DNA from: a virus | DNA: 41,674 nucleotides | Strand: one strand, 5' to 3' | Virus record (IMG/VR): IMGVR_UViG_3300033146_002252 | Location: 1-41,674 of that record | Part shown: piece by piece, positions 5,832 through 39,537 of the stretch | Layout of the letters: each line of letters begins with the position of its first letter | How positions within the stretch are numbered: position 1 is the stretch's first letter | Position numbers and translations under genes: made by a program | Notes under the pieces: generated by a model | What the model was told of the DNA's origin: nothing | Databases searched by the model: none | What the model saw: the letters and a program-made list of their open reading frames with translations, nothing else

Positions 5832-7301
5832 ATGAGTGATAAGATTTTTGATTTTAATGGTTATAATGTACGTTTTGAAAATATGTTATTCCTAAAGTTA
5901 TTTTTAGATAAAAATTTTCGTAACACTGTTATGCCGATGTTAGATGTTAGATATTTTAATCCACCTGTAGGTGAATATCCTTATGATTTAATTTTCAAAT
6001 ATTTTCAAAAATTTTATTTGGATGGGTGTGTTGAAATTACTCCTGTTCAAGTGATTAATGCAATAAAAACTAATGAAAAATATATTGAACCAGAAGATAT
6101 ATCTAGAGTAAAGGCAACGTTCAATAATATTGGTAAATTATATGCAAAATCAGATATGGGGTTCATTAATAGCGTAGATTCAGACTATTTGATAAATATT
6201 ACTGAAAAATATATACAAGAAATAGCTATAGAATTAGCTTTGATAGATTCAGTTGATATTATAGATAATAAACCTAATGAAAAACTTTCTATTCGTGGCT
6301 TGTTGGATGATGCATTAAGTGTTGGATTAAAACGTGATATTGGGTTGGATTATAATAATACTGTAAGGGATAGATTTGAATTTTATCAAAAGTCCGAGGA
6401 TAAAATTCCATTCTTATTAGACAGTTTAAATAAAGTCACTTATAAAGGATTTACACGTAAGACACTAAGTTGTTTTATGGCTGGTACTGGTATAGGTAAA
6501 ACTTTGATAATGACTTCTTTAGTTACTGATTATATTAAACAAGGGTATAATGTAGTATATGTCACATTGGAAATATCAGAGGAGCGTATAGCTCTTAGAA
6601 ATGATGCCAATTTAATGAATATTCCAATTGGTGATTTTGGACGATATGAAAATGGAAATCCAGTTGTTAGTGTCGATGATTTAGTTGAGAAATTTGAAAC
6701 AATTAAGAATGATGAAAAATTAGGTAGATTGATTATTAAAGAATATCCTACAGGGTCTGTTACAACACTTCAAATAAAAACGTTATTGAAAGAATTGAAA
6801 CTCAAAGAAGAATTTAAAGCTGATGTTATTTTTATAGATTATATAAATCTAATAAATTCAGCTAGAATGACAGGTAAAGACTCTAATAGTTATACAATGG
6901 TTAAAAAGGTTGCCGAGGAATTGAGAGGTATAGCTGTTGAAGAAGATGTTGTGATGATTACCGCAACTCAAACAAATAGAGATGGTATTAGTGGGGATGA
7001 AGTTGCGTTAGATAAAGTATCTGAATCAGCTGGGTTACCACATACCACAGATTTCTTTTGTGGTATATTTCAAACCGAGCAACAACGTGAACAGGGTATA
7101 TTTATATTAAAAGTTTTAAAAAATAGATTTTCTGGATATGTAAATTATAAAGTAGCTATGGGTGTTAATTATAATTTTATGAGATTTTTTCAATTGGATG
7201 ATAGTGCTAGTGAGGATGCGATTGATAGAGATGTAGATAATAGTGATGCATCATCATCTGTATTTAGCACTAATAAAAAGAAGAGGCGTAGAAGTAGGTG
7301 A
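5832..7301 (+). CDS. Replicative DNA helicase, DnaB / T4 gp41 type
   Basis: Hexameric 5'-3' fork helicase of superfamily 4. The N-terminal domain (about residues 1-170) resembles the DnaB/gp41 primase-binding region. The RecA-like motor follows: Walker A G-T-G-I-G-K-T at 218-224 (after FMA), the strand VVYVTLE with downstream R residues (motif H1a) near 243, Walker B-like VIFIDYINLI near 335, and ITATQTNR (motif H3) near 377. The 489-residue length fits gp41 (475). The tail is Asp/Ser-rich and ends in a Lys/Arg cluster. Its stop overlaps the next gene's GTG start, so the two are coupled. Confidence 0.9.
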   Translation: MSDKIFDFNGYNVRFENMLFLKLFLDKNFRNTVMPMLDVRYFNPPVGEYPYDLIFKYFQKFYLDGCVEITPVQVINAIKTNEKYIEPEDISRVKATFNNIGKLYAKSDMGFINSVDSDYLINITEKYIQEIAIELALIDSVDIIDNKPNEKLSIRGLLDDALSVGLKRDIGLDYNNTVRDRFEFYQKSEDKIPFLLDSLNKVTYKGFTRKTLSCFMAGTGIGKTLIMTSLVTDYIKQGYNVVYVTLEISEERIALRNDANLMNIPIGDFGRYENGNPVVSVDDLVEKFETIKNDEKLGRLIIKEYPTGSVTTLQIKTLLKELKLKEEFKADVIFIDYINLINSARMTGKDSNSYTMVKKVAEELRGIAVEEDVVMITATQTNRDGISGDEVALDKVSESAGLPHTTDFFCGIFQTEQQREQGIFILKVLKNRFSGYVNYKVAMGVNYNFMRFFQLDDSASEDAIDRDVDNSDASSSVFSTNKKKRRRSR

Positions 7302-9208
7302 GAGATAAAATAATTCAAAAAATGTCAACTATAAAGGGTTCAACTGTTAAAGTTTGGAGAACTATGTTTGATGTTGATGAATTGCTGTATATATTAAATA
7401 ATATATTTTATAAGAATTTAGATTTATCATTTTTAGAAGTTAAATATGCATTTATAAACAATATAATGGATAAACCTGTTTGTCCAGTTTGTGGTGGAGA
7501 TGTTGAGTTCAAATATGGTGGATTTAAAAAATATTGTTCTAGCAAATGTAGAAAATCTAAAATTGGTAAGGATTTAGTTTTTAACAAAATAAAGAAAACT
7601 AATTTAGAAAAATATGGTGTTGAAAATGTTGCACAATCTGATGAAGTAAAATCAAAAGTAAAGAAAACTAATTTAGAAAAATATGGTGTTGAAAGTCATT
7701 TACAATCAGATGATGTAAAATTAAAAATAAAGAAAACTAATTTGAAAAAATATGGTGTTGAAAACGTTGCACAATCTGATGAAGTAAAATCAAAAATAAA
7801 GAAAACTAATTTAGAAAAATATGGTGTTGAAAACGTTGCACAATCTGATGAAATCAAGTCAAAAATAAAGAAAACTAATTTAGAAAAATATGGTGTAGAG
7901 TATTATTCACAAACCGATGAATACTTGGAAAAAGTAAAAGAAACTAATTTAGAAAAATATGGAAAGGATTGGATTTTACAATCTGATGAAATCAAGTCAA
8001 AAATAAAGAAAACTAATTTAGAAAAATATGGTGTAGAGTATTATTCACAAACAGATGAATACTTAGAAAAAGTAAAAGAAACCAATTTAGAAAAATATGG
8101 TGTTGAGTATTATTCACAATCTAATGTTGCTATAGCTGATGAAATTAAACGAAATAGAGAATCTTATTATTCAACTTTTATTTTATTATTAAAGCAAAAA
8201 CAAATACAACCTCTTTTCACTAAGGACGAATATATTCAACACGATTATGATTCAAGCGTGAAAAAATATAAATGTTTAAAATGTGATAAAACCTTTGAAA
8301 ATGTAAATCTTAAAGCTCAAAGAATATTTTGCCCACATCATAAATATAAATCACAGGCTGAACACGATATAAAACAATGGTTATTATCTGAGAACGATGA
8401 ATTAGATATTCTATCAAATAAATATTTCTATGGTGAAAATAATGAAAGGTATGAATTAGATTTATATCTTCCTGAATTAAATCTAGGAATAGAACATCAC
8501 GGATTGTATTGGCATAGTGAAGCACATAAGGATAATAATTATCATAAAGATAAATATAACTTTTTTAAAGAAAAAGGAATTGAAGTTATTCAAATATTTG
8601 AAAATGAATGGGTCAATGCACAGGAAATAGTTAAATCTATAATACGAATAAAAATGGGCGTAGTTAAACGAAAAGTATATGGAAGGTCTTGTGACATTCG
8701 GGAAGTTTTAAATGACGAATATACGCAATTCTGTGAGCTTAATCATCTACAAGGGTATGGTATTGCAAAAGTGAGATTGGGGTTATATTATAATAATACA
8801 TTATTAATGGTTATGAGTTTTTCAAAACCTCGTTTTAATAAAAAATATAAGTGGGAAAATATTAGAACTTGTACATTATTAAATGTTATTGTTCTTGGTG
8901 GTTTTTCTAAATTAATAAAATATTTCATTAATAACTACGAAGGTGATATAATATCTTATGTTGATGTTAGATATTTTAATGGGAATGGTTATATTAAAAA
9001 TGGTTTTGAGTTGATTGGTCATACACGTCCTAATTTTTATTATTTTAAGAATGGAGTGTTAAGTTCTCGTTTAACATACCAAAAACATAAATTGAAATAC
9101 ATTTTTAATAATTTTGATGAAAATAAAACAGCTCATGAAAATATGCTGTTGAATAAATATTTGAGAATATATGATGCTGGGAATTTGATAATGACTATGG
9201 AAAATTAG
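7298..9208 (+). CDS. Homing endonuclease, EDxHD (Vsr-like) type, with repeat array
   Basis: Probably a free-standing homing endonuclease that spreads itself between phage genomes. N-terminus: a zinc-binding pair of cysteine knuckles (CPVCGG, CSSKC) near residues 62-87. Then eight tandem repeats of about 23 residues with the core KKTNLEKYGVE (DNA 7591-8130), probably DNA-binding modules. A further CxxC/CxxH pair follows. The nuclease core has the Vsr/I-Bth0305I pattern: YELDLYLPE, LGIEHHGLYWHS, then HKDKYNFFKEKG and IFENEW. The last 180 residues are a conserved accessory domain of these phage enzymes. GTG 7298 overlaps the helicase stop; ATG 7322 is an alternative start. Confidence 0.8.
   Translation: MRDKIIQKMSTIKGSTVKVWRTMFDVDELLYILNNIFYKNLDLSFLEVKYAFINNIMDKPVCPVCGGDVEFKYGGFKKYCSSKCRKSKIGKDLVFNKIKKTNLEKYGVENVAQSDEVKSKVKKTNLEKYGVESHLQSDDVKLKIKKTNLKKYGVENVAQSDEVKSKIKKTNLEKYGVENVAQSDEIKSKIKKTNLEKYGVEYYSQTDEYLEKVKETNLEKYGKDWILQSDEIKSKIKKTNLEKYGVEYYSQTDEYLEKVKETNLEKYGVEYYSQSNVAIADEIKRNRESYYSTFILLLKQKQIQPLFTKDEYIQHDYDSSVKKYKCLKCDKTFENVNLKAQRIFCPHHKYKSQAEHDIKQWLLSENDELDILSNKYFYGENNERYELDLYLPELNLGIEHHGLYWHSEAHKDNNYHKDKYNFFKEKGIEVIQIFENEWVNAQEIVKSIIRIKMGVVKRKVYGRSCDIREVLNDEYTQFCELNHLQGYGIAKVRLGLYYNNTLLMVMSFSKPRFNKKYKWENIRTCTLLNVIVLGGFSKLIKYFINNYEGDIISYVDVRYFNGNGYIKNGFELIGHTRPNFYYFKNGVLSSRLTYQKHKLKYIFNNFDENKTAHENMLLNKYLRIYDAGNLIMTMEN
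7591..8135 (+). repeat. Eight in-frame 69-bp tandem repeats inside the homing endonuclease gene
   Basis: Each unit encodes about 23 residues with the core KKTNLEKYG and a Q-S/T-D segment. Units alternate between two subtypes: one with ENVAQSDE and one with EYYSQTDE. The near identity of some units at DNA level points to recent unit duplication. Confidence 0.85.
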
Positions 9209-9218
9209 GAGGATGATT

Positions 9219-9500
9219 ATGGGTAAGATTTTTAAACGAGAGGATTTATATAACAATCAGTTGAGTTTTGATATTAAAAACAATGATTTAAAAGCTTGGG
9301 CGGTATATTCTAGGATTGAAGACACCGTTATTAGGATACATTACGTTAATAAAATTAGTAATCAAATCCATTTTGATTTCATTACCAGTCCAGATATTCC
9401 ACATAATGAGTCTAATATGGATAATCTAATGCAAAATATTATGAAATCAGATTTATCATTTAATAGTTTTAATAATTATAAAATAATCAAGGGGTATTGA
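9219..9500 (+). CDS. Small hypothetical protein upstream of nrdG
   Basis: A 93-residue soluble protein beginning MGKIFKRED. ATG 9219 is chosen over the in-frame ATG 9213 because AGGAGG (9207-9212) sits six bases before 9219. One base separates its stop from the nrdG start, so it belongs to the nrdG-nrdD operon. No motif recognised. Confidence 0.65.
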   Translation: MGKIFKREDLYNNQLSFDIKNNDLKAWAVYSRIEDTVIRIHYVNKISNQIHFDFITSPDIPHNESNMDNLMQNIMKSDLSFNSFNNYKIIKGY

Positions 9501-12236: not shown

Positions 12237-12265
12237 TTGACAAACATAATAAAATATATTATAAT
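12237..12265 (+). promoter_or_regulatory. Consensus host-type promoter for the HD/CoaD-like gene
   Basis: TTGACA (12237-12242), a 17-bp spacer and TATAAT (12260-12265). The transcript would begin about 22 nt before the start codon and cover the fusion gene, nicotinamidase and an 80-residue gene. Confidence 0.75.
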
Positions 12266-12293: not shown

Positions 12294-13298
12294 ATGAGAT
12301 TAGAAGATTATATGTTAAAATATTTTAAATTAGCTAATAAATATGGATTATATTTAAGTGATATATCTGAAAATAATGAGCATATTGTTGCTAATGATAT
12401 TATTAATAGTATAATTATTGAATATAATAAAAGTTATAGATTGTATCATAATGAGACACATGTTTTTGATGTTGTTGAAAATATTATAAAGTTATCAGAA
12501 ATGATGTTGTTAGATGAAAAAGAAACCTGTGTAAATGTTTTATCTGCAATATATCAAGATATTGTATTTGATAGTAAAAGAGCTGATAATAGACAAAAAA
12601 GTGCATTTATGTTTGAATGCCATTGGTTGGAATATAGTGAAGATTGTTATCTAATTTCTGATGTTGTTGATTTAATTATTGGCACATCTATTTTTGAAAA
12701 TACAGAGTCATTATTAAACCAAGCTAATTTAAGATTTCTAACTAATAATATGACACATTCTAAAATAGAGGAATATGAGCGTAGTATATTTAAAGAATAT
12801 CAACACGTTCCTTATAGTGAATATAAGATAAAACGGATAAATATATTAAATAAAATATATCTAAAATATAATCATAATAATATAATTCGTAATAATATTC
12901 TCAACATTATAAATTATATTGAGAATCGAATTGTTAGGGTTGGGGTTTATTGTGGAAGTTTCAACCCTCTCAATAATAGACATATGGATATCATAGAACA
13001 GGCTGATAAATTATTTGATAAAGTAATAATAGCTAAAGTTGAAAAATCTAATGAATTTAGTGATTCTATTGTTAACTTTGATTGGATGGACAATGTGAAA
13101 AATGAAGTTATATTTTATTCTGGATTTACAGCTACATTTATAGAAAGTTTAGAGTCTTATTATGATGTTACTTTAATAAGGGAAATGCGGTATGGTTTTG
13201 ATTTGGGTTATGAGATTAAACAAATACAATATATGTTAGAAATGAAACCTGATTTAAAACACATTATGATATTAGCTAGTTGTGATAAAAGCCATTAG
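12294..13298 (+). CDS. HD-domain / CoaD-like adenylyltransferase fusion, 3' end frameshifted
   Basis: Two domains. Residues about 1-210 look like the small predicted HD phosphohydrolases (YHNETHVFDVV at 58-68, later helices). Residues about 216-330 follow phosphopantetheine adenylyltransferase (CoaD): RVGVYCGSFNPLNNRHMDII, LFDKVIIAK, then LIREMRYGFDLGYE. In CoaD the nucleotide motif reads TNGH; here it is N-N-R-H, so the Thr and Gly are replaced. The frame stops at 13298 just where CoaD's ISSS(L/V)R motif should come. An ISSS-like stretch and an open frame to 13393 follow in another frame, so an indel is likely. The substrate could be pantetheine phosphate or a nicotinate nucleotide. Confidence 0.7.
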   Translation: MRLEDYMLKYFKLANKYGLYLSDISENNEHIVANDIINSIIIEYNKSYRLYHNETHVFDVVENIIKLSEMMLLDEKETCVNVLSAIYQDIVFDSKRADNRQKSAFMFECHWLEYSEDCYLISDVVDLIIGTSIFENTESLLNQANLRFLTNNMTHSKIEEYERSIFKEYQHVPYSEYKIKRINILNKIYLKYNHNNIIRNNILNIINYIENRIVRVGVYCGSFNPLNNRHMDIIEQADKLFDKVIIAKVEKSNEFSDSIVNFDWMDNVKNEVIFYSGFTATFIESLESYYDVTLIREMRYGFDLGYEIKQIQYMLEMKPDLKHIMILASCDKSH

Positions 13299-13303
13299 CT
13301 CTT

Positions 13304-13393
13304 TCGATATTTGAGCAAAGCTATAGAAATATGATGTCTAAATATATGATATGGATATTAAATGTTAATAATATTATAGGAGGATTACTATGA
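13304..13393 (+). pseudogene. Out-of-frame continuation of the CoaD-like domain
   Basis: Reading from 13304 gives an open frame (SIFEQSYRNMMSKY...) that stops with TGA at 13391-13393, overlapping the nicotinamidase ATG as ATGA, the coupling geometry seen elsewhere in this window. The bases just before (13294-13302) read ISS. One net -1-type indel in the AAAA run at 13287-13290, or two one-base changes at 13292-13304, would join it to the upstream frame. Confidence 0.55.
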
Positions 13394-14028
13394 AAAAGAA
13401 AATTATTTTTTGGAACGTTGACACATCTAAAGATTTTATGGATACTGATGGGTTACTACCTGTTCCAAATGCAGAATTAATTAGACCAATCTTGGGAAAA
13501 ATCACAACATTTGCCAATAATAATGATTATCAAGTTATTAATAGTTGTGATGCACATTTCTCGGATTCGGATGAAATTAGTGAAACTCCTGATTTTAAGA
13601 CTACTTTTAATATGCATTGTGAACGTGAAACCTCAGGGATGGAATTTATCCCAGAGGTTTCTAAATATTTTAATGATGATAATAGTGTTGTGATTGATTG
13701 GATGAATGAATATAGCAAACACGAATTAAAAGATGCATCTAAAAAAAGAAATATTATATTATATAAAGATAAGTTTGACGTATTTATTGGTAATAAACAT
13801 ACCAATGGGTTATTGGATATAATTAATCCTGATTTAGTTTATGTTTATGGTGTAGCAACGGATATATGTGTAAATTACACGGTGCTAGGGTTATTAAAAA
13901 GAAATATTAAGGTTAGTGTTATTGTTGATGCAATTAAAGAACTTCCTAATTCCAATATTACTGAAATTGTTAATAAATGGGTTTCTATGGGTGCTAAATT
14001 GATTAATTTTAATAATATTAGAGGTTGA
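13390..14028 (+). CDS. pncA: Nicotinamidase (isochorismatase fold)
   Basis: Probably hydrolyses nicotinamide to nicotinate and ammonia. The catalytic triad of the family is visible: D11 (FWNVDTSKDF), K126 (LYKDKFDVF) and C160 (YGVATDICVN, the cis-peptide plus nucleophile motif). Metal ligands D54 and H56 (CDAHF) and H76 match PncA rather than plain isochorismatases. The length of 212 residues is normal. AGGAGG precedes the ATG. It is followed by an 80-residue gene, then genes for the next NAD salvage steps, which supports the nicotinamidase assignment. Confidence 0.85.
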   Translation: MKKKIIFWNVDTSKDFMDTDGLLPVPNAELIRPILGKITTFANNNDYQVINSCDAHFSDSDEISETPDFKTTFNMHCERETSGMEFIPEVSKYFNDDNSVVIDWMNEYSKHELKDASKKRNIILYKDKFDVFIGNKHTNGLLDIINPDLVYVYGVATDICVNYTVLGLLKRNIKVSVIVDAIKELPNSNITEIVNKWVSMGAKLINFNNIRG

Positions 14029-14038
14029 AGGATATTAA

Positions 14039-14281
14039 ATGATTTATAGAAAAATTAAAACTAATAATTTTTTAAAACATATAGAAACAATTGATAATAT
14101 TGATATTTATATGAATAAATATATTAATGGCAATAAAAGGATAACTCCTTGCTCAAAAGAACGATTTGTTAGCTTGTTTGATAAAAACCATATAGTAATT
14201 CAAGATATAACTAGAAAAAATTTTAAAATTATCAATATTCAGAATGCATCTGAATATTATTTTATAAAATATATAAAATAA
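14039..14281 (+). CDS. Small hypothetical protein in the NAD block
   Basis: An 80-residue basic protein beginning MIYRKIKTNNF, ten bases after the nicotinamidase gene, with GAAGGA upstream. Predicted mixed helix and strand, no cysteine cluster or membrane segment. Function unknown; the position suggests co-transcription with the nicotinamidase. Confidence 0.6.
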   Translation: MIYRKIKTNNFLKHIETIDNIDIYMNKYINGNKRITPCSKERFVSLFDKNHIVIQDITRKNFKIINIQNASEYYFIKYIK

Positions 14282-14283
14282 TG

Positions 14284-14312
14284 TTGACTTTTCATTTATG
14301 ATATGATATATT
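14284..14312 (+). promoter_or_regulatory. Host-type promoter before pncB
   Basis: TTGACT, a 17-bp spacer and TATATT with TGA just before it (extended -10). It starts four bases after the stop of the preceding gene. Confidence 0.65.
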
Positions 14313-14350
14313 ATATTTAACTTTGAATAACTTTAATGTGAGGTGATGAT

Positions 14351-15589
14351 GTGTGTAATTTGAACAATGAATATAATGGTGTGTTAATGTCAATATTGGA
14401 TAATGACACATATAAATTTACAATGCAACAAGTTGTGTTTCACCAGTTTCCACAAGTCGAGGTTGAATATGAATTTAAATGTAGAACTGATGGTGGAGGT
14501 ATGGTTTTAGCTGAACACCTAGATATAATTAGAGATGAAATATATAAAATGAAAGATTTAAAATTAACATATTCAGAGGAAGAATGGTTACGAACTATTC
14601 CATTTTTAAAAGATGACTATATTGATTTTTTGGATGAGTTTAGATTTAATCCTGAAAAACACGTTAAAATAATGGTTGATGATGGAGATATATTTATTAA
14701 AATCATTGGTCCCTGGGTTCAGACTATTTTATATGAGGTTCCAATTTTAGCAATTTTATCTGAAATTTCTTCTAAAACACAGCGTGTGTTTTATAAAGGT
14801 AATTGGAAAGAGCAATCTATTAAGAATTTAGATGATAAAATCAAAAAAGTTAAAGCACATAATTTAGGTTCACAGTTCAAGCTCGTAGATTTTGGAACAA
14901 GAAGACGCTCATCATCCGATAATCAAGATATGGTTGTTAGATATTGTAAAGAACAATTCAACACTTTGGGTGATGGTCAATTTATTGGAACATCTAATAT
15001 GCATTTAGCTAAAAAATATTCATTAAAACCAATAGGAACGATGGCTCACGAATATATAATGGCGTTTCAAGTATTATCTCCGATTAAACATTTTCAGGCA
15101 TCTGCGTTAAAGGTGTGGGATGATGAATATGATGGGGATTTAGGAATAGCATTAACAGACACCATTAATATGGATTCTTTTCTTAAAGATTTTACATTGA
15201 GTAAATCAAAATCATATGATGGTTGTAGACACGATTCCGGAGACCCTTTTATATGGGGGGATAAACTAATTAAACATTATAAAAGTTATGGAATTGACCC
15301 ATTAACTAAAAGTGCAGTTTTTTCAGACGGTTTAGATTTTGATAAGGCATTAGAAATTTTAGAATATTTTAATGGTAAAATATTGGTTAGTTTTGGGATT
15401 GGAACAAATTTAACTAATGATTGTGGGGTAAATCCTATTTCTATAGTTATTAAAATGCAAAAATGTCAAGGTTATCCAGTGTGTAAAATTTCGGACACAC
15501 CTGTTAAAGCAATGTGTCAAATGGATTCATTTTTGAATTATATGAAAGATATTCACGGAATAAAAAATAAAAATTTGACATATAAATAG
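14351..15589 (+). CDS. pncB: Nicotinate phosphoribosyltransferase
   Basis: Converts nicotinate and PRPP to nicotinate mononucleotide, second step of the Preiss-Handler route. The bacterial PncB pattern is present along the whole length: LDNDTYKFTMQQVVF near the N-terminus, EYEFKCR, a GPWVQTILYEVPILA helix, VDFGTRRR ending at residue 186, GTMAHE with H233 (the phosphorylated histidine of PncB enzymes), and the RHDSGDP loop. The length of 412 is normal. It is PncB rather than NAMPT, which lacks this N-terminal pattern and is longer. The start is GTG 14351, supported by GAGGTGAT; ATG 14387 would lose conserved residues close by. Confidence 0.92.
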   Translation: MCNLNNEYNGVLMSILDNDTYKFTMQQVVFHQFPQVEVEYEFKCRTDGGGMVLAEHLDIIRDEIYKMKDLKLTYSEEEWLRTIPFLKDDYIDFLDEFRFNPEKHVKIMVDDGDIFIKIIGPWVQTILYEVPILAILSEISSKTQRVFYKGNWKEQSIKNLDDKIKKVKAHNLGSQFKLVDFGTRRRSSSDNQDMVVRYCKEQFNTLGDGQFIGTSNMHLAKKYSLKPIGTMAHEYIMAFQVLSPIKHFQASALKVWDDEYDGDLGIALTDTINMDSFLKDFTLSKSKSYDGCRHDSGDPFIWGDKLIKHYKSYGIDPLTKSAVFSDGLDFDKALEILEYFNGKILVSFGIGTNLTNDCGVNPISIVIKMQKCQGYPVCKISDTPVKAMCQMDSFLNYMKDIHGIKNKNLTYK

Positions 15590-15603
15590 AATTATGATAT
15601 ATT
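15575..15603 (+). promoter_or_regulatory. Host-type promoter before nadE
   Basis: TTGACA (15575-15580), a 17-bp spacer and TATATT (15598-15603) with TGA before it. The -35 box lies within the last codons of pncB. Confidence 0.65.
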
Positions 15604-15634
15604 ATATATGATGTTTTGATTAAAGGAGATTATA

Positions 15635-16450
15635 TTGAGGGTTTTAGATTATACTAGAGTTGAAAATTTGTTAATAGATTATATAAAATATGAATTTAAT
15701 ACTAGTGGTTTTAATAAAGCTGTTATTAATTTATCTGGTGGTTTGGATTCATCAGTAATTGCTTACTTAACAGTTAAAGCATTGGGTAATAATAATGTTA
15801 CAGGTTTATTATTACCTTATAAAGGAATTAGTTCTAAAGAATCTGTTGATGATGCTGTTAAGATTTCTGATTTACTTGGGATTAATTATATCATAAAAGA
15901 AATTAATGATATAGTAGATATTATTGAACGTGATATGTTTACTAATATTAACAATTCTAAACTTAGAAAAGGTAATGTGATGGCAAGGGTTAGAATGATG
16001 TTGGCTTTTGACTTTTCTAGTGCTAATGATGCTTTGGTTATGGGAAGTTCAATGTTAACAGAGGAGATATTAGGATATTTTACTCTTTGGGGTGACCACG
16101 CTAGTTGCATTGAACCAATGATTCAGCTATATAAAACCGAGGTTTTCAAGTTAGCAGAACATTTAAATGTTCCAATTGAAATAATAAAAAAATCACCATC
16201 CGCAGAATTATGGTTGGAGGATAATGGGGAGCTTCAAAGTGATGAACAAGAATTAGGAATATCTTATGATATCATTGATGATATTTTATATCATATAATT
16301 GATAAAAAGTGGGACGAGAACGACTTTAAACAAAATAAATATGATATGTCATCGGTTGTTGAAGTTATGAACAAAATTAATAAAATGAAGTATAAATTAG
16401 AATTACCAAAACACCCATTAAAAGATATATTAAATGTTGCTATTGTTTAA
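15635..16450 (+). CDS. nadE: NH3-dependent NAD+ synthetase
   Basis: Final step of NAD+ synthesis: amidates nicotinate adenine dinucleotide with ATP and ammonia. The pyrophosphatase P-loop S-G-G-L-D-S-S is at 34-40. The family's dimer and substrate segments follow: GNVMARVRMMLAFDFS near 112-127, then LVMGSSMLTEEILGYFTLWGD, and KSPSAELW. No glutaminase domain is present, so ammonia is the expected donor; the neighbouring nicotinamidase would release some. Length (271) is typical. The start is TTG 15635 with AAAGGAG upstream. Confidence 0.92.
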   Translation: MRVLDYTRVENLLIDYIKYEFNTSGFNKAVINLSGGLDSSVIAYLTVKALGNNNVTGLLLPYKGISSKESVDDAVKISDLLGINYIIKEINDIVDIIERDMFTNINNSKLRKGNVMARVRMMLAFDFSSANDALVMGSSMLTEEILGYFTLWGDHASCIEPMIQLYKTEVFKLAEHLNVPIEIIKKSPSAELWLEDNGELQSDEQELGISYDIIDDILYHIIDKKWDENDFKQNKYDMSSVVEVMNKINKMKYKLELPKHPLKDILNVAIV

Positions 16451-16475
16451 TATATTTAGGGTAATATTAGAGCCT

Positions 16476-16494
16476 AATCCAATTTGGATTTTTT
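16476..16494 (+). terminator. Weak hairpin terminator after nadE
   Basis: A 6-bp stem AATCCA / TGGATT with a 3-nt loop, followed by a T run to 16494. Short stem, so it may only attenuate transcription into the HU gene. Confidence 0.4.
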
Positions 16495-16517
16495 ATAACT
16501 AAGTAATGGAGATTACA

Positions 16518-16784
16518 ATGACAAAGAAAGAATTTATCAGTGCGTTGAAGGAAAAAGGAATTAGTGATGCTAAAAGTGTGTATGAAACATTTATCGAAGT
16601 CATCGTTGATGGTATTAAAGATGGTGACGATGTTGTATTGCACGGAATTGGGACTTTTAAGGTAGCAAATAAAGAAGCTAGAGTTGGTAGAAATCCTCAA
16701 ACAGGAGCAACTATTCAAATCCCAGCTAAGAAGGCGTTATCATTCAAGGTTTCAAAAACAATTAAAGATGCTATTAATAGTTGA
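16518..16784 (+). CDS. HU-family DNA-binding protein
   Basis: An 88-residue histone-like protein. The signature of HU/IHF is clear: TKKEFISALKEKG at the start, a GIGTFKV strand, then GRNPQTG near residues 57-63 and the DNA-binding arm, ending with FKVSKTIKDAIN. ATG 16518 is preferred over the in-frame ATG 16506 because GGAG lies before it and HU proteins start at this point. It stands alone between a weak terminator and a strong one. It may bend or compact phage DNA, or act at replication or recombination sites; which one is not visible. Confidence 0.92.
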   Translation: MTKKEFISALKEKGISDAKSVYETFIEVIVDGIKDGDDVVLHGIGTFKVANKEARVGRNPQTGATIQIPAKKALSFKVSKTIKDAINS

Positions 16785-16801
16785 TTTAATTTCTAATTTT
16801 A

Positions 16802-16832
16802 AAAAGAGGTGGGTCAATAACCCACCTCTTTT
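16802..16832 (+). terminator. Strong hairpin terminator after the HU gene
   Basis: A 13-bp perfect stem (AAAAGAGGTGGGT at 16802-16814, ACCCACCTCTTTT at 16820-16832) with a 5-nt loop and T-rich tail. The flanking A and T runs make it work in both directions on paper. Confidence 0.85.
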
Positions 16833-16850
16833 ATTATTTGGGGGTTGGTT

Positions 16851-17918
16851 TTGTTAAATATACAACAAGGTGTTAAAATAACTGATATTTTAAAATACAG
16901 TGATAATGATTGGTGTACAGCTATTAAACAATCTTATGAATCGAAAATAGCAAAAGTCGATTTTAAATGTGATATAAATACCCCAGAGGGCGTGATGGTT
17001 GCTGATGTTGGTGATTATATCGTTGTAGATGTTGAGGGTAATCAATATATCATTAAAAGTGACCTTATGGAGTATAATTATAGTGATTTAACTTTGGATG
17101 TTGATTCTTTTGTTATAGATTTTAATACTAAGCCTGTTGATACCAGTTCTATTGTATTTTATACAGGGGTTAGAGTTCCATCCATTGTTAGATATGCTGT
17201 TATCAATGATGATTTCAATATAATCCAACAAAATGATTGTATGTATGGTGAGAAAAATGACATTCTAATAGAAACAGATAAAAATGGAAAACCATTTTAT
17301 TATAGAATATATCCTAAAATATTCAATATGACTTATAATATAATAAAATATGCTGTTTATTTGGGTAGATTTTCACCTATACATAAGGGACATCAAAAAG
17401 TAATATCGAAAATGGTGTCAAAATTTGGATATAAGAGCAGTTTATTGTTGATTGGGAGTAGTGTATCAAAATTAGGTAATCGTTTATTCTACACCTATTT
17501 ACAGCGTAAAAATATGATAAAAAAGTTATACCCTAAGATTACAGTTGTTGGGTTACCTGATTATAAAGATGTTTACCCTGGTGATTTAGATTTTACACAA
17601 TGGCATTCTAATCTTTGGGATATTATAAATTTAAGATTTCCAACAGCAAATATTCAAAATACAGTATTTATTGGTGGTGCCTTGAATGATGTTTATTTTT
17701 TTAAAGATTCAGGATATAATGTTGTAATTATGGATAGATATGATGTTGATAAGATGTCAGCAACAGAGGTTAGACAACGGCTTGTGTTAGATGAATATGG
17801 ATTAAATGCAGATTTAAATATTAGAAGTCTAATAGAATTGTGTGATGAAGATATTATAAAAGATATAAAAAAATATTATAATGACAATTTAAATTTGATA
17901 TATTCTGATGAATTATAA
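16851..17918 (+). CDS. NMN/NaMN adenylyltransferase-like protein with extra N-terminal domain
   Basis: The C-terminal half is a nucleotidyltransferase of the NadM/NadR-type: AVYLGRFSPIHKGH with the (H/T)xGH motif ending at about residue 181, and MSATEVRQRL near 302-311, the ISxTxxR equivalent. The likely reaction is adenylation of nicotinate or nicotinamide mononucleotide, the third salvage step. The first 160 residues are separate, with a VGDYIVVDVEGNQYIIKSD segment that looks like a small beta domain found next to nucleotide enzymes; I cannot name it. TTG 16851 fits the GGGGG ribosome site better than TTG 16845. Substrate preference cannot be read from sequence. Confidence 0.8.
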   Translation: MLNIQQGVKITDILKYSDNDWCTAIKQSYESKIAKVDFKCDINTPEGVMVADVGDYIVVDVEGNQYIIKSDLMEYNYSDLTLDVDSFVIDFNTKPVDTSSIVFYTGVRVPSIVRYAVINDDFNIIQQNDCMYGEKNDILIETDKNGKPFYYRIYPKIFNMTYNIIKYAVYLGRFSPIHKGHQKVISKMVSKFGYKSSLLLIGSSVSKLGNRLFYTYLQRKNMIKKLYPKITVVGLPDYKDVYPGDLDFTQWHSNLWDIINLRFPTANIQNTVFIGGALNDVYFFKDSGYNVVIMDRYDVDKMSATEVRQRLVLDEYGLNADLNIRSLIELCDEDIIKDIKKYYNDNLNLIYSDEL

Positions 17919-19187: not shown

Positions 19188-20327
19188 ATGGAAAGAAAAC
19201 TAGCTAGTATTCAAAAAATTGTCAATATCACACCAATCAAAGGGTATGATAGGGTTGAGCTTGCAACTGTTTTAGGTTGGAGTTGTATTATAGGTAAAGG
19301 TGAATTTAAGATTGGGGATTTAGTCGTTTATTTTGAACCTGATTCATTATTATATCCGCATAAAGTGTGGGATAATATTCTTTCAAAAAGAAAATGGAGG
19401 GTTAGAACTCTTAAAATGTGTAAAGTTATATCACAAGGGTTGATTATGCCTTTGGATATAATAAAAGAGATAGATGGCACTGCTCGACCACATATGGTTG
19501 AGGGTTATGATTTAACTAATATTTTAAAGGTTAAACATTATGAAAAATATAAACAAGAACTTGCTCTTAATAACGATATCGGTAAACAAAATAATAAAAT
19601 AATTAAAAAGTTAATGTATTTCAAGGCGTTTAGATGGGTGTATAATATGTTATATGGTAGCAAAATAAAAGGATTATATCCAACATCTATAATTTCAAAA
19701 ACAGATGAGACCAATATACAATCTTTTCCTAGTTTTATTGATGAAAATATGGGTTCAGTGTTATACATATCTGAAAAATTAGAAGGACAAAATGGTAATT
19801 ATTTATATTATAGGAAGAATGGATTTATAAATAGATTATTAAATAAAAAACAGTTTCTAGTTTGCTCTCATAATGTAAAATTACCACATAAAAATAACTC
19901 TAATTGGTGGAATGTATCTGAAAAATTTGATATTGAAAATATTCTTAAAAAATATCAAAAAGATACAGGTATTCACGTAGGGGTTCAAGGTGAAATTATA
20001 GGTCCTAGTATTCAAAAAAATATATATAAACTTAAAGAGTTGGATTTTTATTTTTTTAATGTTAAAAATTTAGATACTGGTCATTATTTCAATCTTAAAG
20101 AAAAACGTGAATTTGCTAATGCTACAGGGTTGAAGTTGGTTCCTATTTTAGATGATAATTTCAAAATAACATCTGATATGGGTGTTAACGAAATCCTTGA
20201 ATTAGCAAATGGTTTCAGTGTACTAAATAAGGATACTCTTAGAGAGGGGTTAGTTATTAGAAATATCAATAATGATAGGAAATCTATAAAAGCTAGAAGT
20301 CCAAAGTATTTAATAAAGAACAAATGA
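19188..20327 (+). CDS. RNA ligase, Rnl5 (DraRnl) type
   Basis: ATP-dependent RNA-end-joining enzyme that would mend nicked RNA. The N-terminal OB-like domain of this class is evident: RKLASIQKI, GYDRVELATVLGW, then GEFKIGDLVVYFEPDS (38-53). The nucleotidyltransferase domain has motif I as E-K197-L-E-G, motif IV E-G-L-V-I-R at 353-358 and motif V IKARSPKYL at the end. The usual KxDG is KLEG here. At 379 residues it is a little longer than DraRnl (342), with an inserted basic helix near 115-165. Its likely targets are nicks held by an RNA or DNA strand. AAAGGAG precedes the ATG. Confidence 0.88.
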   Translation: MERKLASIQKIVNITPIKGYDRVELATVLGWSCIIGKGEFKIGDLVVYFEPDSLLYPHKVWDNILSKRKWRVRTLKMCKVISQGLIMPLDIIKEIDGTARPHMVEGYDLTNILKVKHYEKYKQELALNNDIGKQNNKIIKKLMYFKAFRWVYNMLYGSKIKGLYPTSIISKTDETNIQSFPSFIDENMGSVLYISEKLEGQNGNYLYYRKNGFINRLLNKKQFLVCSHNVKLPHKNNSNWWNVSEKFDIENILKKYQKDTGIHVGVQGEIIGPSIQKNIYKLKELDFYFFNVKNLDTGHYFNLKEKREFANATGLKLVPILDDNFKITSDMGVNEILELANGFSVLNKDTLREGLVIRNINNDRKSIKARSPKYLIKNK

Positions 20328-24900: not shown

Positions 24901-25500
24901 TTAATTAATTATATTTAAATTTTTCATAATATTTTTTAAATTTTTCTGAACATCATATCCTATTGTTGATAATATTTGATGATTATTATTTTTACAATAT
25001 TCTATTTTTATATCCTGCTCTATTTGAGATTGTATTCTTATTATTGCTTCTTGTTTTGATATGTTATTTCTGCTCATCAATCTGCTGATTCTAATTCCTA
25101 TTGGACAAGTTATTAATAATATATTATCATATTTATTCATTTCAAAATATTCAAATAAAACAGGGTGTTCTAATAATATATTTCTATTTAATAACTTTTG
25201 CTCTGATATAATTCGGTTTGTCGTGTCTATTATTAATGGATGGGTTACATTTGTTAGTTTTTCCATTTGTTCAGAATTGTTAAAAACAATTCGTCCTAAT
25301 ATTTTTTTGTTAATTGTGGTGTCATCTAAAAAAATATCTATCCCAAAAATTTTAAATAATTTTCCTTTTACTATATCCATATTCAACACAATATTCGCAA
25401 TTTCATCAATATTTATATGATAAAACCCATACTCGGTTTCTATCATTTTACAAACTGTTGTTTTGCCTGATGCAATATTCCCAGTGACTACTAATAACAT
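24901..25500 (-). CDS. coaE: Dephospho-CoA kinase
   Basis: P-loop kinase expected to phosphorylate dephospho-CoA to CoA. Walker A G-N-I-A-S-G-K-T at 7-14, then INIDEIANIV, IFLDDTTINKKILGRIVFNN and L-T-N-V-T-H-P-L-I, which together are the CoaE pattern (DADxIA, R/KxxLGxIVF, HP). RISRLMSRN near 140 fits the LID. I prefer ATG 25500 to the in-frame TTG 25533: it puts the P-loop at the usual distance and follows the upstream stop by one base. T4 dNMP kinase lacks these motifs. It could pair with the CoaD-like domain at 12.9 kb. Confidence 0.8.
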   Translation of the reverse strand: MLLVVTGNIASGKTTVCKMIETEYGFYHINIDEIANIVLNMDIVKGKLFKIFGIDIFLDDTTINKKILGRIVFNNSEQMEKLTNVTHPLIIDTTNRIISEQKLLNRNILLEHPVLFEYFEMNKYDNILLITCPIGIRISRLMSRNNISKQEAIIRIQSQIEQDIKIEYCKNNNHQILSTIGYDVQKNLKNIMKNLNIIN

Positions 25501-25501
25501 T

Positions 25502-25693
25502 TTATAACATATTTTTTGTTTTAGGCTTATCAATTATGGAATTATTTGTGGTGCAATCACAAGACCATATTGTTACCCCAAAATCATTTTTACTTTTAAT
25601 CATTTGTTTTGAACAATATGGACAAATAAAATTTAAATCTTCTTGCTCATCTATCATTTTCATTTTAAATTCATCATTCCATAACTTATCCAT
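25502..25693 (-). CDS. Small zinc-ribbon-like protein
   Basis: A 63-residue protein with ICPYCSKQM and WSCDCTTN, a CxxC and a CxC pair, like the 36-residue protein at 22533. It is one base from the kinase start (TAA then AATG), so the two are coupled. Function unknown; such ribbons often bind nucleic acid or protein partners. Confidence 0.6.
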   Translation of the reverse strand: MDKLWNDEFKMKMIDEQEDLNFICPYCSKQMIKSKNDFGVTIWSCDCTTNNSIIDKPKTKNML

Positions 25694-27760: not shown

Positions 27761-28762
27761 ATGGATTATAAAAAAAATGGGGTTGTTTTAGAAATAAAAA
27801 CTGGAAGCCATCTATATGGAACAAATGTTGAAACATCTGATGAAGATTTTGTTGGCGTTTATATTCCATCTTATTTTGAGCTATTAACTTCTGATAAATA
27901 TATAAAAGAAAAAGATTTCTCTATAAAGTCTAAAGATAAAAATGGTAAAAATGATAAAAATGCTGTCGATAGAAAATATTATAATTTTAATAATTTCATT
28001 AAATTGTTAATATCCAATAATCCCAATATCTTAGAAATATTATATGCTAATGATGAAAATATAACATATGTTAATCCCATAGGACAAAAATTAATAGATA
28101 ATAGACATTTGTTTCCCTCCATCAAATTGGTTAAAAGATTTATAGGATATTCAAATCAACAATCTCATAAAATGGAAATAAAAAGTAATAAGTTTAATGA
28201 GATGAATATTATACTAGAATATTTAAAATCAATCAACCCAAAATTATTAATAGCTGAATTACAATATGATAACGAGTTTAAAAAATTATTAGAAGAATGT
28301 AAAACTAATGAAATAAAACAAGATGGTAAAATAAAAAAAGTTATTAGATTGCACGATGACTTCTTAACTATTGGAGATTTAAATATTCCTATTAATGTTT
28401 ATGTTAAAAATGCTTGTTCTAGGTTACAAAATCGCATATCTAAAGGTACATCACGTAATAGGCTTATTACAAAATATGGATATGATGTGAAATTTGGAAT
28501 GCATTTGATTAGACTGTTAATTGAGGGATTGCAATTTTTAAAATTTGGTGAGTTACAATTCCCTTTACCTGAAAAAGATTTATTATTATCTATTAGAAAT
28601 GGTGAGTTGAAAATCGATGAAATATTCGATTTAAGAGATAAATTGTTACAAGATATAACTTACTATGAAAAGATAACTAATCTGCAAATAACACCAAATT
28701 TGGAGGTTATAGGCTATATTATGAACGAATGCTTGAATGATTATATTAATGGTGATTATTAA
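27761..28762 (+). CDS. RlaP-like nucleotidyltransferase (Pol beta superfamily)
   Basis: A 333-residue protein with the Pol-beta-type motif G-S-H-L-Y-G (15-20) and S-D27-E-D29-F-V-G, as in the RlaP / COG3541 family that is often found near RNA ligases. These proteins are thought to add or remove nucleotides at RNA ends; the reaction is not proved. The middle has a KNACSRLQNR helix. GGAG precedes the ATG, and the next gene starts one base after the stop. An RNA ligase is encoded 7.4 kb upstream. Confidence 0.75.
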   Translation: MDYKKNGVVLEIKTGSHLYGTNVETSDEDFVGVYIPSYFELLTSDKYIKEKDFSIKSKDKNGKNDKNAVDRKYYNFNNFIKLLISNNPNILEILYANDENITYVNPIGQKLIDNRHLFPSIKLVKRFIGYSNQQSHKMEIKSNKFNEMNIILEYLKSINPKLLIAELQYDNEFKKLLEECKTNEIKQDGKIKKVIRLHDDFLTIGDLNIPINVYVKNACSRLQNRISKGTSRNRLITKYGYDVKFGMHLIRLLIEGLQFLKFGELQFPLPEKDLLLSIRNGELKIDEIFDLRDKLLQDITYYEKITNLQITPNLEVIGYIMNECLNDYINGDY

Positions 28763-29268: not shown

Positions 29269-29751
29269 ATGAAAAAATTCATATTATTATTGGTTGTTGT
29301 GTTATATTGTACGTCACTTTTCGCTTGGAAAAGACACGCCAAATTGATTTATTCGTATTTTGAAAAAACAGAGTATCATAATGTTGCTGATGTTATTACT
29401 GCAATGTCTATACTCGAAACTGGTTGGTATAAATCAAAAAATCACATATGTCGAAATAATATGTTCTCTATTAAAACTATCATTAAAAAAAATTGGACTG
29501 ATTGTAATAATAATCCTTGTAATAAGCCAATTTGTAAAATGCATCATTTCAAAACATTAAAACAGGGATATAAACACGTGTTAGAACACTTTAGACAAAA
29601 ACATTTTAGCACTAATAGAAATAAATTTTTAACTGAACTTACTACTAAACGTTATGCACAGGATAAACAGTATCAAGATAAGTTGAAATGGATAATTAGA
29701 GTTAAATTAAAAAATATAATATTTCAAAATAAAAATAGGTTGGCAAAATGA
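29269..29751 (+). CDS. Exported glucosaminidase-type lysozyme
   Basis: Probable peptidoglycan hydrolase of the endo-beta-N-acetylglucosaminidase family (Bax/FlgJ type). A signal peptide is clear: MKK, hydrophobic core FILLLVVVLY, then CTSLFA with cleavage likely after A19. The active-site Glu is E50 in AMSILETGW. NNMFSIK, a Cys-rich insert (CNNNPCNKPIC) and RYAQDKQYQDKLKW follow the family order. At about 140 mature residues it is compact. ATG 29269 is preferred; TTG 29260 would place residues before the signal. Its stop overlaps the next ATG as ATGA, coupling it to a WG protein. Confidence 0.75.
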   Translation: MKKFILLLVVVLYCTSLFAWKRHAKLIYSYFEKTEYHNVADVITAMSILETGWYKSKNHICRNNMFSIKTIIKKNWTDCNNNPCNKPICKMHHFKTLKQGYKHVLEHFRQKHFSTNRNKFLTELTTKRYAQDKQYQDKLKWIIRVKLKNIIFQNKNRLAK

Positions 29752-30650
29752 TAATTATAAATTTTAATCAAATATATAAAAATAGATATTATTATAATAA
29801 AATGATTAAAGAATCCAATGCTTGTGTTGATGAATATAAAAATCTTATTAAGGCTACTAATGCAAATAATAAAGAAAAATATATCCAAATTATTCAAAAT
29901 AATTTCGAATGGTTTAATGATAATATTATTAATAAATTCTATGTCTGTTATGATTTTAAAAATGGTTTCGCTAGAGTTCAACAAAATGGTAAATGGGGTT
30001 ATCTCAAATCTGATGGAACTTTCCTCACTGATATTATATACGATGTCTGTTATGATTTCAAAAATGGTTTCGCTAGAGTTCAACAAAATGGTAAATATGG
30101 ATTTATTAACCTTGATGGGGTTAATATTACTGGATATATTTATAATGATTGCTTCGACTTCAAAAATGGGTTCGCTAAGGTTCAACAAAATGGCAAATAT
30201 GGTTATATCAAATCTGACGGAACTTTCCTCACTGATATTATATACGATGATTGTTCTGATTTTAAATCTGATTTAGCTAAGGTTCAACAAAATGATAAAT
30301 GGGGTTATATCAAATCTGATGGAACTTTCCTCACTGATATGATATATGATGTCTGTTATGATTTCATATCTGATTTCGCTAAGGTCAAAATCGATGATAA
30401 ATATGGTTATCTCAAATCTGATGGAACTTCGCTCACCGAGTGTGTGTACGATATATGTTTTAAATTTAAAAATGATTTCGCTAGGGTTCAACAAAATGAT
30501 AAATGGGGTTATCTCAAATCTGATGGTACGATGCTCACTGATTATATATTCTCGGCTTGTTTAGATTTTGAAAATGATAAGGCTCTTGTTCATCTTGACA
30601 ATAAATGGGGCACAATAGACACTCAAGGAACGTTTACACCAAACCAATAA
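29748..30650 (+). CDS. WG-repeat protein 1
   Basis: A 300-residue protein: an N-terminal helical module of about 65 residues (KESNACVDEYKNLIKAT, IQIIQNNFEWFND), then seven 34-residue WG (KWG) repeats built on K-(W/Y)-G-Y-(L/I)-K-S-D-G-T. WG repeats form beta-rich, possibly binding, arrays. Coupled to the glucosaminidase gene by an ATGA overlap. The stop TAA (30648-30650) replaces a TAC kept in WG protein 2: reading on gives QNTN...QSS to a second TAA at 30696-30698, so the tail was recently cut. Function unknown. Confidence 0.85.
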   Translation: MIIINFNQIYKNRYYYNKMIKESNACVDEYKNLIKATNANNKEKYIQIIQNNFEWFNDNIINKFYVCYDFKNGFARVQQNGKWGYLKSDGTFLTDIIYDVCYDFKNGFARVQQNGKYGFINLDGVNITGYIYNDCFDFKNGFAKVQQNGKYGYIKSDGTFLTDIIYDDCSDFKSDLAKVQQNDKWGYIKSDGTFLTDMIYDVCYDFISDFAKVKIDDKYGYLKSDGTSLTECVYDICFKFKNDFARVQQNDKWGYLKSDGTMLTDYIFSACLDFENDKALVHLDNKWGTIDTQGTFTPNQ

Positions 30651-30720
30651 CAAAACACCAACCCACACCCAAACGTTCAACCACGCCAATCCTCATAAGT
30701 CAAAATAATCAAAATAAAAC

Positions 30721-30749
30721 TTGACAAAACCAAAAATAAATGATATATT
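30721..30749 (+). promoter_or_regulatory. Promoter of WG gene 2
   Basis: TTGACA, 17 bp, TATATT with TGA before it. The 70 bp before it carry sequence homologous to the 3' end of WG genes. Confidence 0.65.
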
Positions 30750-30793
30750 ACTTTTACTGGGGTTAGATTGCAAACAAACAAAAGGATTTCAAA

Positions 30794-31642
30794 ATGCAAA
30801 AAGTAGATTTCAAACAAATGTTCAAAGATAAAAACAATACCAATGAACAAATCAAAAAAGCTGGTGCTTGCAAAGAGGAATATAAAAAACTCATCAAGGC
30901 ATCAAATCAAAATAATGAACAAGAATATATCAATGTCATCCAAAATAATTTCCGATGGGTTAATGAATACATAGCTCATATTTACGATTATGGTTATGAT
31001 TTCAAAAATGGATTCGCAGTAGTCAAAAATAATGGTAAATATAGTCACATCAAACAAGATGGAACCCTACTCACAAATTTCATTTATGATTATTGTTATG
31101 ATTTCAATAATGGATTAGCAGTGGTCAAACTTGATGATAAATATTGTCACATCAAAACAGATGGAACCCCACTTACAAATTTCATTTATGATTATTGTTA
31201 CAATTTCAAAAATGGATTCGCAATAGTCAAACTTGATGATAAATGGGGATATATCAAACAAGATGGAACCCCACTTACAAAATTCATTTACGATTATTGT
31301 TATGATTTTAATAATGGATTCGCAGTGGTCAAAATTGATGATAAATGGGGATATATCAAAACAGATGGAACCCTACTTACAAATTTCATTTACGATGATT
31401 GCTCTGATTTCAAAAATGGATTCGCAATAGTCAAACTTGATGACAAAGAAGGATATATCAAACAAGATGGAACCCCACTTACTCAAATCCTCTATGATAT
31501 GTGTTACAATTTCAAAAATGGATTTGCTAGAGCCAAACTTGACAATAAATGGGGCACAATAGACACTCAAGGAACGTTCACTCCAGATGAATACCAAAAC
31601 ACTAACCAACTCCATATCGTTCAAATACATCATTCCTCATAA
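30794..31642 (+). CDS. WG-repeat protein 2
   Basis: A 282-residue protein with the same N-terminal helical module (KAGACKEEYKKLIKASNQNN) and six 34-residue repeats. Three have lost the WG pair (KYSHI, KYCHI, KEGYI). The tail TFTPDEYQNTNQLH...HHSS is the sequence whose decayed copies fill the next 1.5 kb. The coding strand is unusually rich in A and C (AAACC, CCACTTAC), unlike the WG genes at 37-41 kb. AAGGA precedes the ATG. Confidence 0.85.
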   Translation: MQKVDFKQMFKDKNNTNEQIKKAGACKEEYKKLIKASNQNNEQEYINVIQNNFRWVNEYIAHIYDYGYDFKNGFAVVKNNGKYSHIKQDGTLLTNFIYDYCYDFNNGLAVVKLDDKYCHIKTDGTPLTNFIYDYCYNFKNGFAIVKLDDKWGYIKQDGTPLTKFIYDYCYDFNNGFAVVKIDDKWGYIKTDGTLLTNFIYDDCSDFKNGFAIVKLDDKEGYIKQDGTPLTQILYDMCYNFKNGFARAKLDNKWGTIDTQGTFTPDEYQNTNQLHIVQIHHSS

Positions 31643-33180
31643 GTCAATATAGCAAATACAAATCTCAACAAACTCAACAAAGCTTCAAATCAAAATGTAA
31701 TTATTGTTATTATTTTCAAAATAATATAGCCCAGGTCAAACTCATCAATATATAATCCACAATTAACGTACAAGGAACGTTCACACCAAACCAATACCAA
31801 AACACCAACCAACTCCATAACGTTCAACTACACCAATCCTCGTAAGTTAAAATAGCAAATACAAATCAAACCAAATCAAACCAAACCAAATCAATGGTCC
31901 AATGTTGAAAATGAAATCAATATATAACTCACAATTAACATACAAAGAACGTTTAAATCAAAATAACAATCAAAATAACAATCAAACTCATCAATATATA
32001 ACCCATAATTGACCTACAATGAACATTCACACCAATACAATACCAAAACACCAACCAATACCAAAACGTTCAAATACAACAATCCTTGTAAGCCAATATA
32101 GCAAATACAAATCCAATTCAAAAAAACAATTCAAAAATGAAATCCATAATAAAACAAATCCATAATAACAATCAAACTCATTTATATATAACTCACAATT
32201 AACCTACAAGAAACGTTCACACCAATTCAATACCAAAACACCAACCAATCAAATAACGTTCAAATACATCATTCATCATAAGTCAATATAGCAAATACAA
32301 ATATCAATGGTCCAATGTTAATAAAAAATAATTCAATCAAACTATCATCTAACAATCAAACTCAAAAATTAACCTACAAGAAACGTTCACACCAATTCAA
32401 TACCAAAACACCAACCAATCAAATATCGTTCAAATACATCATTCATCATAAGTCAATATAGCAAATACAAATCAAACCAAATCAATGGTCCAATGTTGAA
32501 AATGAAATCAATATATAACCCATAATTGACCTACAATGAACATTCACACTAAACCAATACCAAAACACTACCCAACTCCATATCGTTCAAATACAACAAT
32601 CCTTGTAAGCCAATATAGCAAATACAAATACAAATACAAATATCAATTGCTCAATGTTATAAAAAACAAATCCATAATAAAATAATTCAATCAAACTATC
32701 ATCTAACAATCAAACTCAAAAATTAACATACAATGAACGTTTATATCAAACTCATCAATATATAATCCACAATTAACATACAATGAACGTTTATATCAAA
32801 CCAATACCAAAACTACATATCGTTCAAATACATCAATCATCGTAAGTCAATATAGTCAATATAGCAAATACAATTATCAATGGTCCAATGTTATAAAACA
32901 ATTCAAAAAACAATTCCATAATAAAATAATTCTATGGTTTAATTCAAACTCATTTATATATAACTCACAATTAACATACAAGAAACATTTATATCAAACC
33001 AATATAATTCCACTAACCAATCAAATATCGTTCAAATACATTAATCCTCGTAAGTCAATATAGTCAATATAGCAAATACAATTATCAAATCATCAATGTA
33101 AAAAAAACAATTCAATCAAACTATCATCAATACAAATAATGAAATCTATATAAACTCATATAACTACAATTATCAATTGC
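31643..33180 (+). repeat. Array of about seven decayed WG gene copies
   Basis: No open gene here. Units of about 160-250 bp repeat: GTCAATATAGCAAATACAAAT, short N-terminal pieces, AAACTCATCAATATATAA, then GAACGTTCACACC and an AATACCAAAACACCAACC tail. Tail copies lie near 31791, 32038, 32228, 32398, 32556, 32799 and 32996. The first unit is the clearest: 31697-31760 still reads as a WG half repeat (CYYFQNNIAQVKLIN), and 31755-31790 aligns without gaps to the last WG repeat of the gene before it, with TGG GGC changed to TAA TCC. The strand is rich in A and C. Confidence 0.75.
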
Positions 33181-33850: not shown

Positions 33851-33854
33851 GCAT

Positions 33855-34010: not shown

Positions 34011-34026
34011 ATATGTATTGACAACT

Positions 34027-39520: not shown

Positions 39521-39537
39521 AAATAAATCCAAAAAAT

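Follow-up and report, generated by a model that had tools for sequence, protein, structure and literature searches.

A tailed-phage contig carrying the four enzyme types of a predicted Preiss–Handler route from nicotinamide to NAD+

Can a phage carry its own route from nicotinamide to nicotinamide adenine dinucleotide (NAD+), and would such a route serve metabolism or the evasion of host NADase defences? The question was raised by a 41.7-kb fragment, the IMG/VR viral record IMGVR_UViG_3300033146_002252, analysed over its whole length (hereafter the window). Its plus strand carries genes for a nicotinamidase (PncA), a nicotinate phosphoribosyltransferase (PncB), an ammonia-dependent NAD+ synthetase (NadE) and a NadM-like adenylyltransferase, spanning 13390-17918. 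In Preiss–Handler chemistry, PncA converts nicotinamide to nicotinic acid, PncB with phosphoribosyl pyrophosphate (PRPP) forms nicotinic acid mononucleotide (NaMN), ATP is added to give nicotinic acid adenine dinucleotide (NaAD), and NadE, with ATP and ammonia, yields NAD+. The first-pass annotation of the window had read the four genes as a one-strand set of enzyme types leading from nicotinamide to NAD+; family scores, motifs and models bear this out, recurrence in other viral contigs strengthens it, and the phage probably encodes the full deamidated route.

Identity of the four enzymes

The catalytic motifs are intact in all four proteins. PncA scored 46 bits against the Pfam family Isochorismatase, and its triad D11, K126 and C160, already proposed at first reading, showed no variation across 38 aligned viral homologues, and neither did the metal ligands D54/H56/H76; these residues make up an Asp-Lys-Cys triad and an Asp-His-His metal site on an isochorismatase fold. 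Matches in the Protein Data Bank (PDB) were the nicotinamidases of P. horikoshii and M. tuberculosis, and the AlphaFold2 model (mean predicted local distance difference test score 92.8) gave the S. mutans nicotinamidase 3s2s as top Foldseek match. The protein is divergent in sequence and its structural neighbours include other amidases sharing the fold, nicotinamidases being the best; from these residues and the context with pncB and nadE, nicotinamide is the predicted substrate.

The first-pass identities of PncB and NadE hold, both proteins scoring above curated cut-offs. For PncB, 455 bits were obtained with TIGR01514 (cut-off 270) and 500 bits with NF003704 (cut-off 379), PDB 1yir was matched over nearly the full length (E 1e-107), and only 66 bits were reached with the PHROG named nicotinamide phosphoribosyltransferase. 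NadE gave 265 bits with NF010587 (cut-off 255) and 221 bits with TIGR00552 (cut-off 64), matched PDB 2e18 over nearly the full length (E 2e-51), and has a conserved SGGxDS loop and no glutaminase (amidase) domain.

The adenylyltransferase is the weakest link by sequence: its curated family score lies below the cut-off, and it was placed by its fold and by the motifs HxGH and SATEVR (of the form SxTxxR), which are kept as the first-pass annotation had noted. Residues H180, G182, H183, R221, W253, T307 and R310 are invariant among viral homologues. Model confidence is high in the catalytic domain alone, for which the best structural match was the NadM enzyme 2qjo (Z 18.1; NadM structures Z 16.5-18), with NadR (Z 14) and CoaD (Z 13.4) both below. 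The N-terminal extension of about 165 amino acids (16845-17340) was modelled at low confidence and has no known function; its residues 11-82 match the phage families phrog_419, phrog_4502 and phrog_1810, all of unknown function.

Recurrence and variety in other viral contigs

A phage PncB alignment was scanned against viral contigs, giving 211 relatives, of which the best 80 of 211 were kept, and whole-record Pfam searches were performed on 50 IMG/VR contigs carrying a PncB relative. The first-pass annotation had proposed a search for pncA-pncB-nadE neighbourhoods in other phage genomes, and they were found in dozens of viral contigs. NadE was detected above cut-off on 35 of the 50 contigs, isochorismatase on 31 and, below cut-off, on one more. 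Within 5 kb of pncB, and always on the same strand, NadE was present in 31 contigs (3.9 expected) and isochorismatase in 30 (3.6 expected), the expected counts assuming uniform placement; CTP_transf-like domains, whose matches include unrelated enzymes, lay within this distance in 13 (3.5 expected). With our own profiles, all four types were found in 27 of 87 loci and pncA, pncB and nadE in 51 (locus at most 21 kb); the nadM profile among these may attract other nucleotidyltransferases at low scores, and conclusions were drawn from the Pfam counts and the curated family matches. Inside the loci, 78 of the 122 pncA or nadE genes were located at most 1.5 kb from pncB and on its strand (35.6 expected under uniform placement). 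When PncB sequences were collapsed at 70% identity, pncA and nadE occurred within 5 kb in 27 of 61 groups, in 14 gene orders. The nearest 80 bacterial pncB loci contained all four types in one case only, a control with shorter flanks and mostly Pseudomonadota, which shows only that the nearest bacteria seldom cluster all four.

The full set was also found in Sinorhizobium phage Phosso and in the uncultured phages LR756501 and MT835470. The pncB hits of Acinetobacter phage MD-2021a lay in bacterial neighbourhoods and were therefore excluded from the phage evidence. When viral contigs were searched directly with the window PncB, no close relative came up, and searches at near identity for the cassette were likewise without a close match. 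In a PncB tree, with a bacterial sample of the best 80 hits (nearly all Pseudomonadota), the window joined two viral loci (L037/L038) weakly, and the origin of its gene was not indicated.

The adenylyltransferase beside pncA, pncB and nadE varies: some phages have a NadM type, L061 and L088 a NadM-Nudix, LR756501 a NadR type, and L109 and L064 a NadD type. On L080 (IMGVR_UViG_3300031998_000310, 8005-9339) one 440-amino-acid protein holds a NadD domain (TIGR00482 137 bits, cut-off 112) and a NadE domain (TIGR00552 166 bits, cut-off 64), directly 3' of pncA and pncB with overlapping frames, so that the last two Preiss–Handler steps lie in a single chain; on this contig no phage hallmark was found beyond a tRNA-His guanylyltransferase matching a PHROG family. 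Some NadE proteins carry a glutaminase domain (L110). The adenylyltransferase frames of L111 (G048) and L096 (G041) contain two in-frame TAG and two in-frame TGA, respectively, which hint at recoded stops or broken copies. Co-location far above expectation, on the same strand and in shuffled order, with adenylyltransferases of several types and the NadD–NadE fusion, is strong evidence for a selected Preiss–Handler route; without a benefit of the whole route to phages, its repeated assembly from differing parts would be difficult to account for.

These data also bear on the order of the last two steps. As in Francisella, NadE might amidate NaMN to nicotinamide mononucleotide (NMN), from which the NadM-like enzyme would make NAD+. 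NadR-type enzymes prefer NMN, and it is such an enzyme that LR756501 combines with pncA, pncB and nadE; NadM enzymes, among them the Francisella one (2qjt, Z 16.7), are the nearest to the adenylyltransferase domain of the window. The window NadE, however, resembles ordinary NAD+ synthetases (178 bits with 2e18) more than it does that of Francisella (110 bits with 3fiu), and the NadD-type enzymes of other phages and the NadD–NadE fusion fit NaAD, so that a route through NMN is considered unlikely here. It is distinctly unlikely, too, that 16845-17918 encodes another nucleotidyltransferase of the HIGH superfamily while host NadD performs the step. Such a protein would be in keeping with the low sequence scores, the long N-terminus of unknown function, a terminator-like hairpin that sets the gene apart and the occurrence of an adenylyltransferase within 5 kb in only 13 of the 50 PncB contigs, but NMN adenylyltransferases (Z 14-18) account for all the top structural matches, ahead of CoaD (13.4), and both motifs are conserved.

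Bacterial contamination or a chance cluster has a negligible probability. IMG/VR contigs can be misassigned and the window is a fragment, yet it is flanked by phage genes, which excludes contamination for the window itself: genes for baseplate wedge, tail tube protein, UvsX and a T4-type replicative helicase (36-38% identical to helicases of T4-like cyanophages) identify the source as a tailed phage, and a class III ribonucleotide reductase is also encoded. Elsewhere, the cassette of L090 lies among phage topoisomerase, thymidylate synthase, helicase, primase, single-stranded DNA-binding protein and polymerase genes, and 20 of the 50 PncB contigs carry a terminase or a tail sheath gene.

Arrangement of the block and its surroundings

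The features of the window are listed in Table 1. The first-pass annotation had the cluster begin at 12294; its course to 17918 on one strand stands from pncA onwards, and the proposed start does not, as it is that of an open reading frame (ORF) with HD-like and CoaD-like parts. This ORF, which is not needed for NAD+ synthesis, reached 45.9 bits with TIGR01510 (cut-off 103) and a phosphohydrolase match with phrog_19425, and its CoaD-like domain stops short of the ISSTxxR motif. The 80-amino-acid ORF gave no matches in Pfam, PHROG or NCBIfam.

Table 1 Features of the window (positions in the 41.7-kb record)
Feature	Position	Strand	Basis or remark
Promoter-like TTGACA-17-TATAAT, upstream of block	12237-12265	+	perfect, 12/12; 0.18 expected per strand, whole window
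HD-like N-terminus and CoaD-like domain, not one of the four enzymes	12294-13298	+	TIGR01510, phrog_19425
PncA nicotinamidase, 212 amino acids, ATG start with AGGAGG	13390-14028	+	Pfam Isochorismatase, motifs, model
80-amino-acid ORF, function unassigned, between pncA and pncB	14039-14281	+	ORF call
PncB nicotinate phosphoribosyltransferase, 412 amino acids, GTG start	14351-15589	+	TIGR01514, NF003704, PDB 1yir
Promoter-like TTGACA-17-TATATT, extended -10, just upstream of nadE	15575-15603	+	11/12
NadE ammonia-dependent NAD+ synthetase, 271 amino acids, TTG start with AGGAG	15635-16450	+	NF010587, TIGR00552, PDB 2e18
HU/IHF-like DNA-binding protein, within cluster	16506-16784	+	Pfam Bac_DNA_binding, 96 bits
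Terminator-like hairpin, between HU gene and adenylyltransferase	16802-16832	+	13 pairs, 6 GC
NadM-like NMN/NaMN adenylyltransferase (domain: residues 166-349)	16845-17918	+	arch_NMN_Atrans partial match, structural match
Homing-endonuclease/DUF7487-like protein, 3' of helicase gene	7298-9208		internal 69-bp repeat array 7586-8126
RNA ligase	19188-20327		
Dephospho-CoA kinase (CoaE)	24901-25533	-	TIGR00152 112 bits (cut-off 66)
RlaP-family nucleotidyltransferase	27761-28762		
Eight paralogues with WG-type repeats	29748-31642 and 34572-41267		102-bp tandem units
Stretch with few ORFs and repeat arrays	31850-36700		includes ~190-bp array 31965-32473

The block is not one simple operon, given the hairpin and the promoters before 12294 and before nadE, and the hairpin suggests that the adenylyltransferase is transcribed separately from the upstream genes. 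Sites with at least 11 of 12 positions of the promoter consensus are expected about three times per strand across the window. Both promoters are of the sigma-70 type, the same class as strong promoters elsewhere on the contig, and since perfect or near-perfect sites of this kind precede the block and nadE, early expression driven by the host is likely.

The NAD genes stand beside the anaerobic ribonucleotide reductase gene in a metabolic block. CoaE and the shortened CoaD-like domain represent the two final enzyme types of coenzyme A (CoA) synthesis on the contig, and CoaE homologues are also present in the huge phages LR756501 and LR756500. The RNA ligase and the RlaP-type nucleotidyltransferase encoded in the window are likely an RNA-repair pair, comparable to other large phages. 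No tRNA was found in the window by ARAGORN and no RNA family by Rfam. The paralogues with WG-type repeats (DDKWGYIKSDGT) share 25-69% mutual identity, and upstream of most of them lies a TTGACA-17-TATAAT promoter, nearly perfect and with an extended -10; the family is strongly promoted and unexplained. The repeat arrays of the ORF-poor stretch include units of about 35 bp (GATATAACCCCAGTGGTATGATTGTATAGAGGTAT) without an Rfam match.

Counter-defence or metabolic supply

On this contig PncA would turn nicotinamide into nicotinic acid, PncB would combine it with PRPP to NaMN, the NadM-like enzyme, presumably acting on NaMN, would form NaAD with ATP, and the ammonia-dependent NadE would complete NAD+ from NaAD, ATP and ammonia. 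With genes probably expressed early from host-type promoters, the NAD+ pool could be kept up or rebuilt during infection.

As the first-pass annotation had stated, the set differs from the known phage NAD+ reconstitution pathways NARP1 and NARP2. Like the window set, NARP2 and the KVP40-type salvage by NadV with NadM or NadR lead from nicotinamide to NAD+ by a phosphoribosyltransferase and an adenylyltransferase, but NARP2 takes nicotinamide directly through NadV, whereas the window set would deamidate first and re-amidate by NadE at an extra cost of ATP and ammonia. NARP2 is defined by NadV plus an adenylyltransferase, and the phosphoribosyltransferase of the window scores as a nicotinate phosphoribosyltransferase. 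NARP1 (Adps and Namat) likewise rebuilds NAD+ with nicotinamide released by NADases; it recycles ADP-ribose, whereas PRPP and ATP would be consumed by the window set. Among the scanned proteins of the window fragment, none had a recognisable Adps-like domain.

Reportedly, a complete gene set for NAD+ synthesis, by salvage or by the Preiss–Handler pathway, is encoded in 174 of 668 jumbo phages. NAD+-synthesising gut jumbo phages, like the window in having phage-encoded NAD+ synthesis, were reported by Li et al. 2024 (Microbiome 12:268, doi 10.1186/s40168-024-01984-w), to the extent that this work is cited in PMC13282480 and PMC12931631. In a survey of 21,191 viral proteomes, Iyer et al. 2022 named NadV, NadM and NadR as the principal enzymes of NAD+ synthesis (PMC9503650), and a tabulated comparison of phAss-type gut phage genomes includes a nicotinamidase (PMC10607447). 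Phosso (PV764938) has annotated genes for nadE, pncB and NMN adenylyltransferase, and its 'hydrolase' is a nicotinamidase homologue; as in the window, nadE, pncB, the NMN adenylyltransferase and the isochorismatase lie within about 6 kb on a single strand, but the order is nadE-pncB-NMNAT-pncA (NMNAT, NMN adenylyltransferase), with additional Nudix and unknown genes, and the PncB proteins are about 31% identical. The novelty implied at first reading is thus lost to Phosso and, as far as the citing papers convey it, to the gut jumbo phages; the window set is a further example of already reported phage NAD+ synthesis and not the first, while the shuffled order, the mixed adenylyltransferases and the NadD–NadE fusion may be new details.

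Several points weigh against a complete route that benefits the phage. The adenylyltransferase reached 40 bits with arch_NMN_Atrans (TIGR01527), far under the cut-off of 181, and the NadM enzymes closest to it may favour NMN as substrate. The HU gene and the hairpin interrupt the set of four. The closest relative found (L199, a 31 kb fragment, NrdD 80% identical) shows no PncB and no NadE, so that the NAD set is accessory. Most bacteria already possess these enzymes, and a benefit would therefore need flux or enzyme-deficient hosts. The set is probably useful to the phage.

As to the use, countering NADase defences is given slightly less than an even chance of being a main selective reason. 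The same weight falls to metabolic supply with no such role, by which NAD+ would be made for replication and repair or to complement hosts weak in NAD+ synthesis; both fit and are regarded as equally likely. Supply is favoured by the position of the set in a metabolic block beside the anaerobic ribonucleotide reductase, mildly by CoaE on the same contig, which would go with a broader habit of cofactor supply, and by the lack of any recognisable defence or counter-defence gene near the NAD set; in PMC13282480 jumbo-phage NAD+ synthesis is attributed to resource supply. On the other side, NAD+ reconstitution by NARP1 and NARP2 is an established phage counter-defence (PMC11984713), and nicotinamide is the product common to NADases. 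More tentatively, the cassette may be a third phage NAD+ reconstitution system, repeatedly and independently assembled, that counters NADase immunity by recycling the freed nicotinamide via nicotinic acid, with the NadD–NadE fusion as its most compact form.

If the set does defend against NAD+ depletion, it would add a third biochemical route beside NARP1 and NARP2, one that present searches for counter-defence based on NadV, NadM and NadR would miss. The shuffled clusters and the fusion protein are compact material for testing which of the two, metabolism or immune evasion, is served by NAD+ synthesis in phages.

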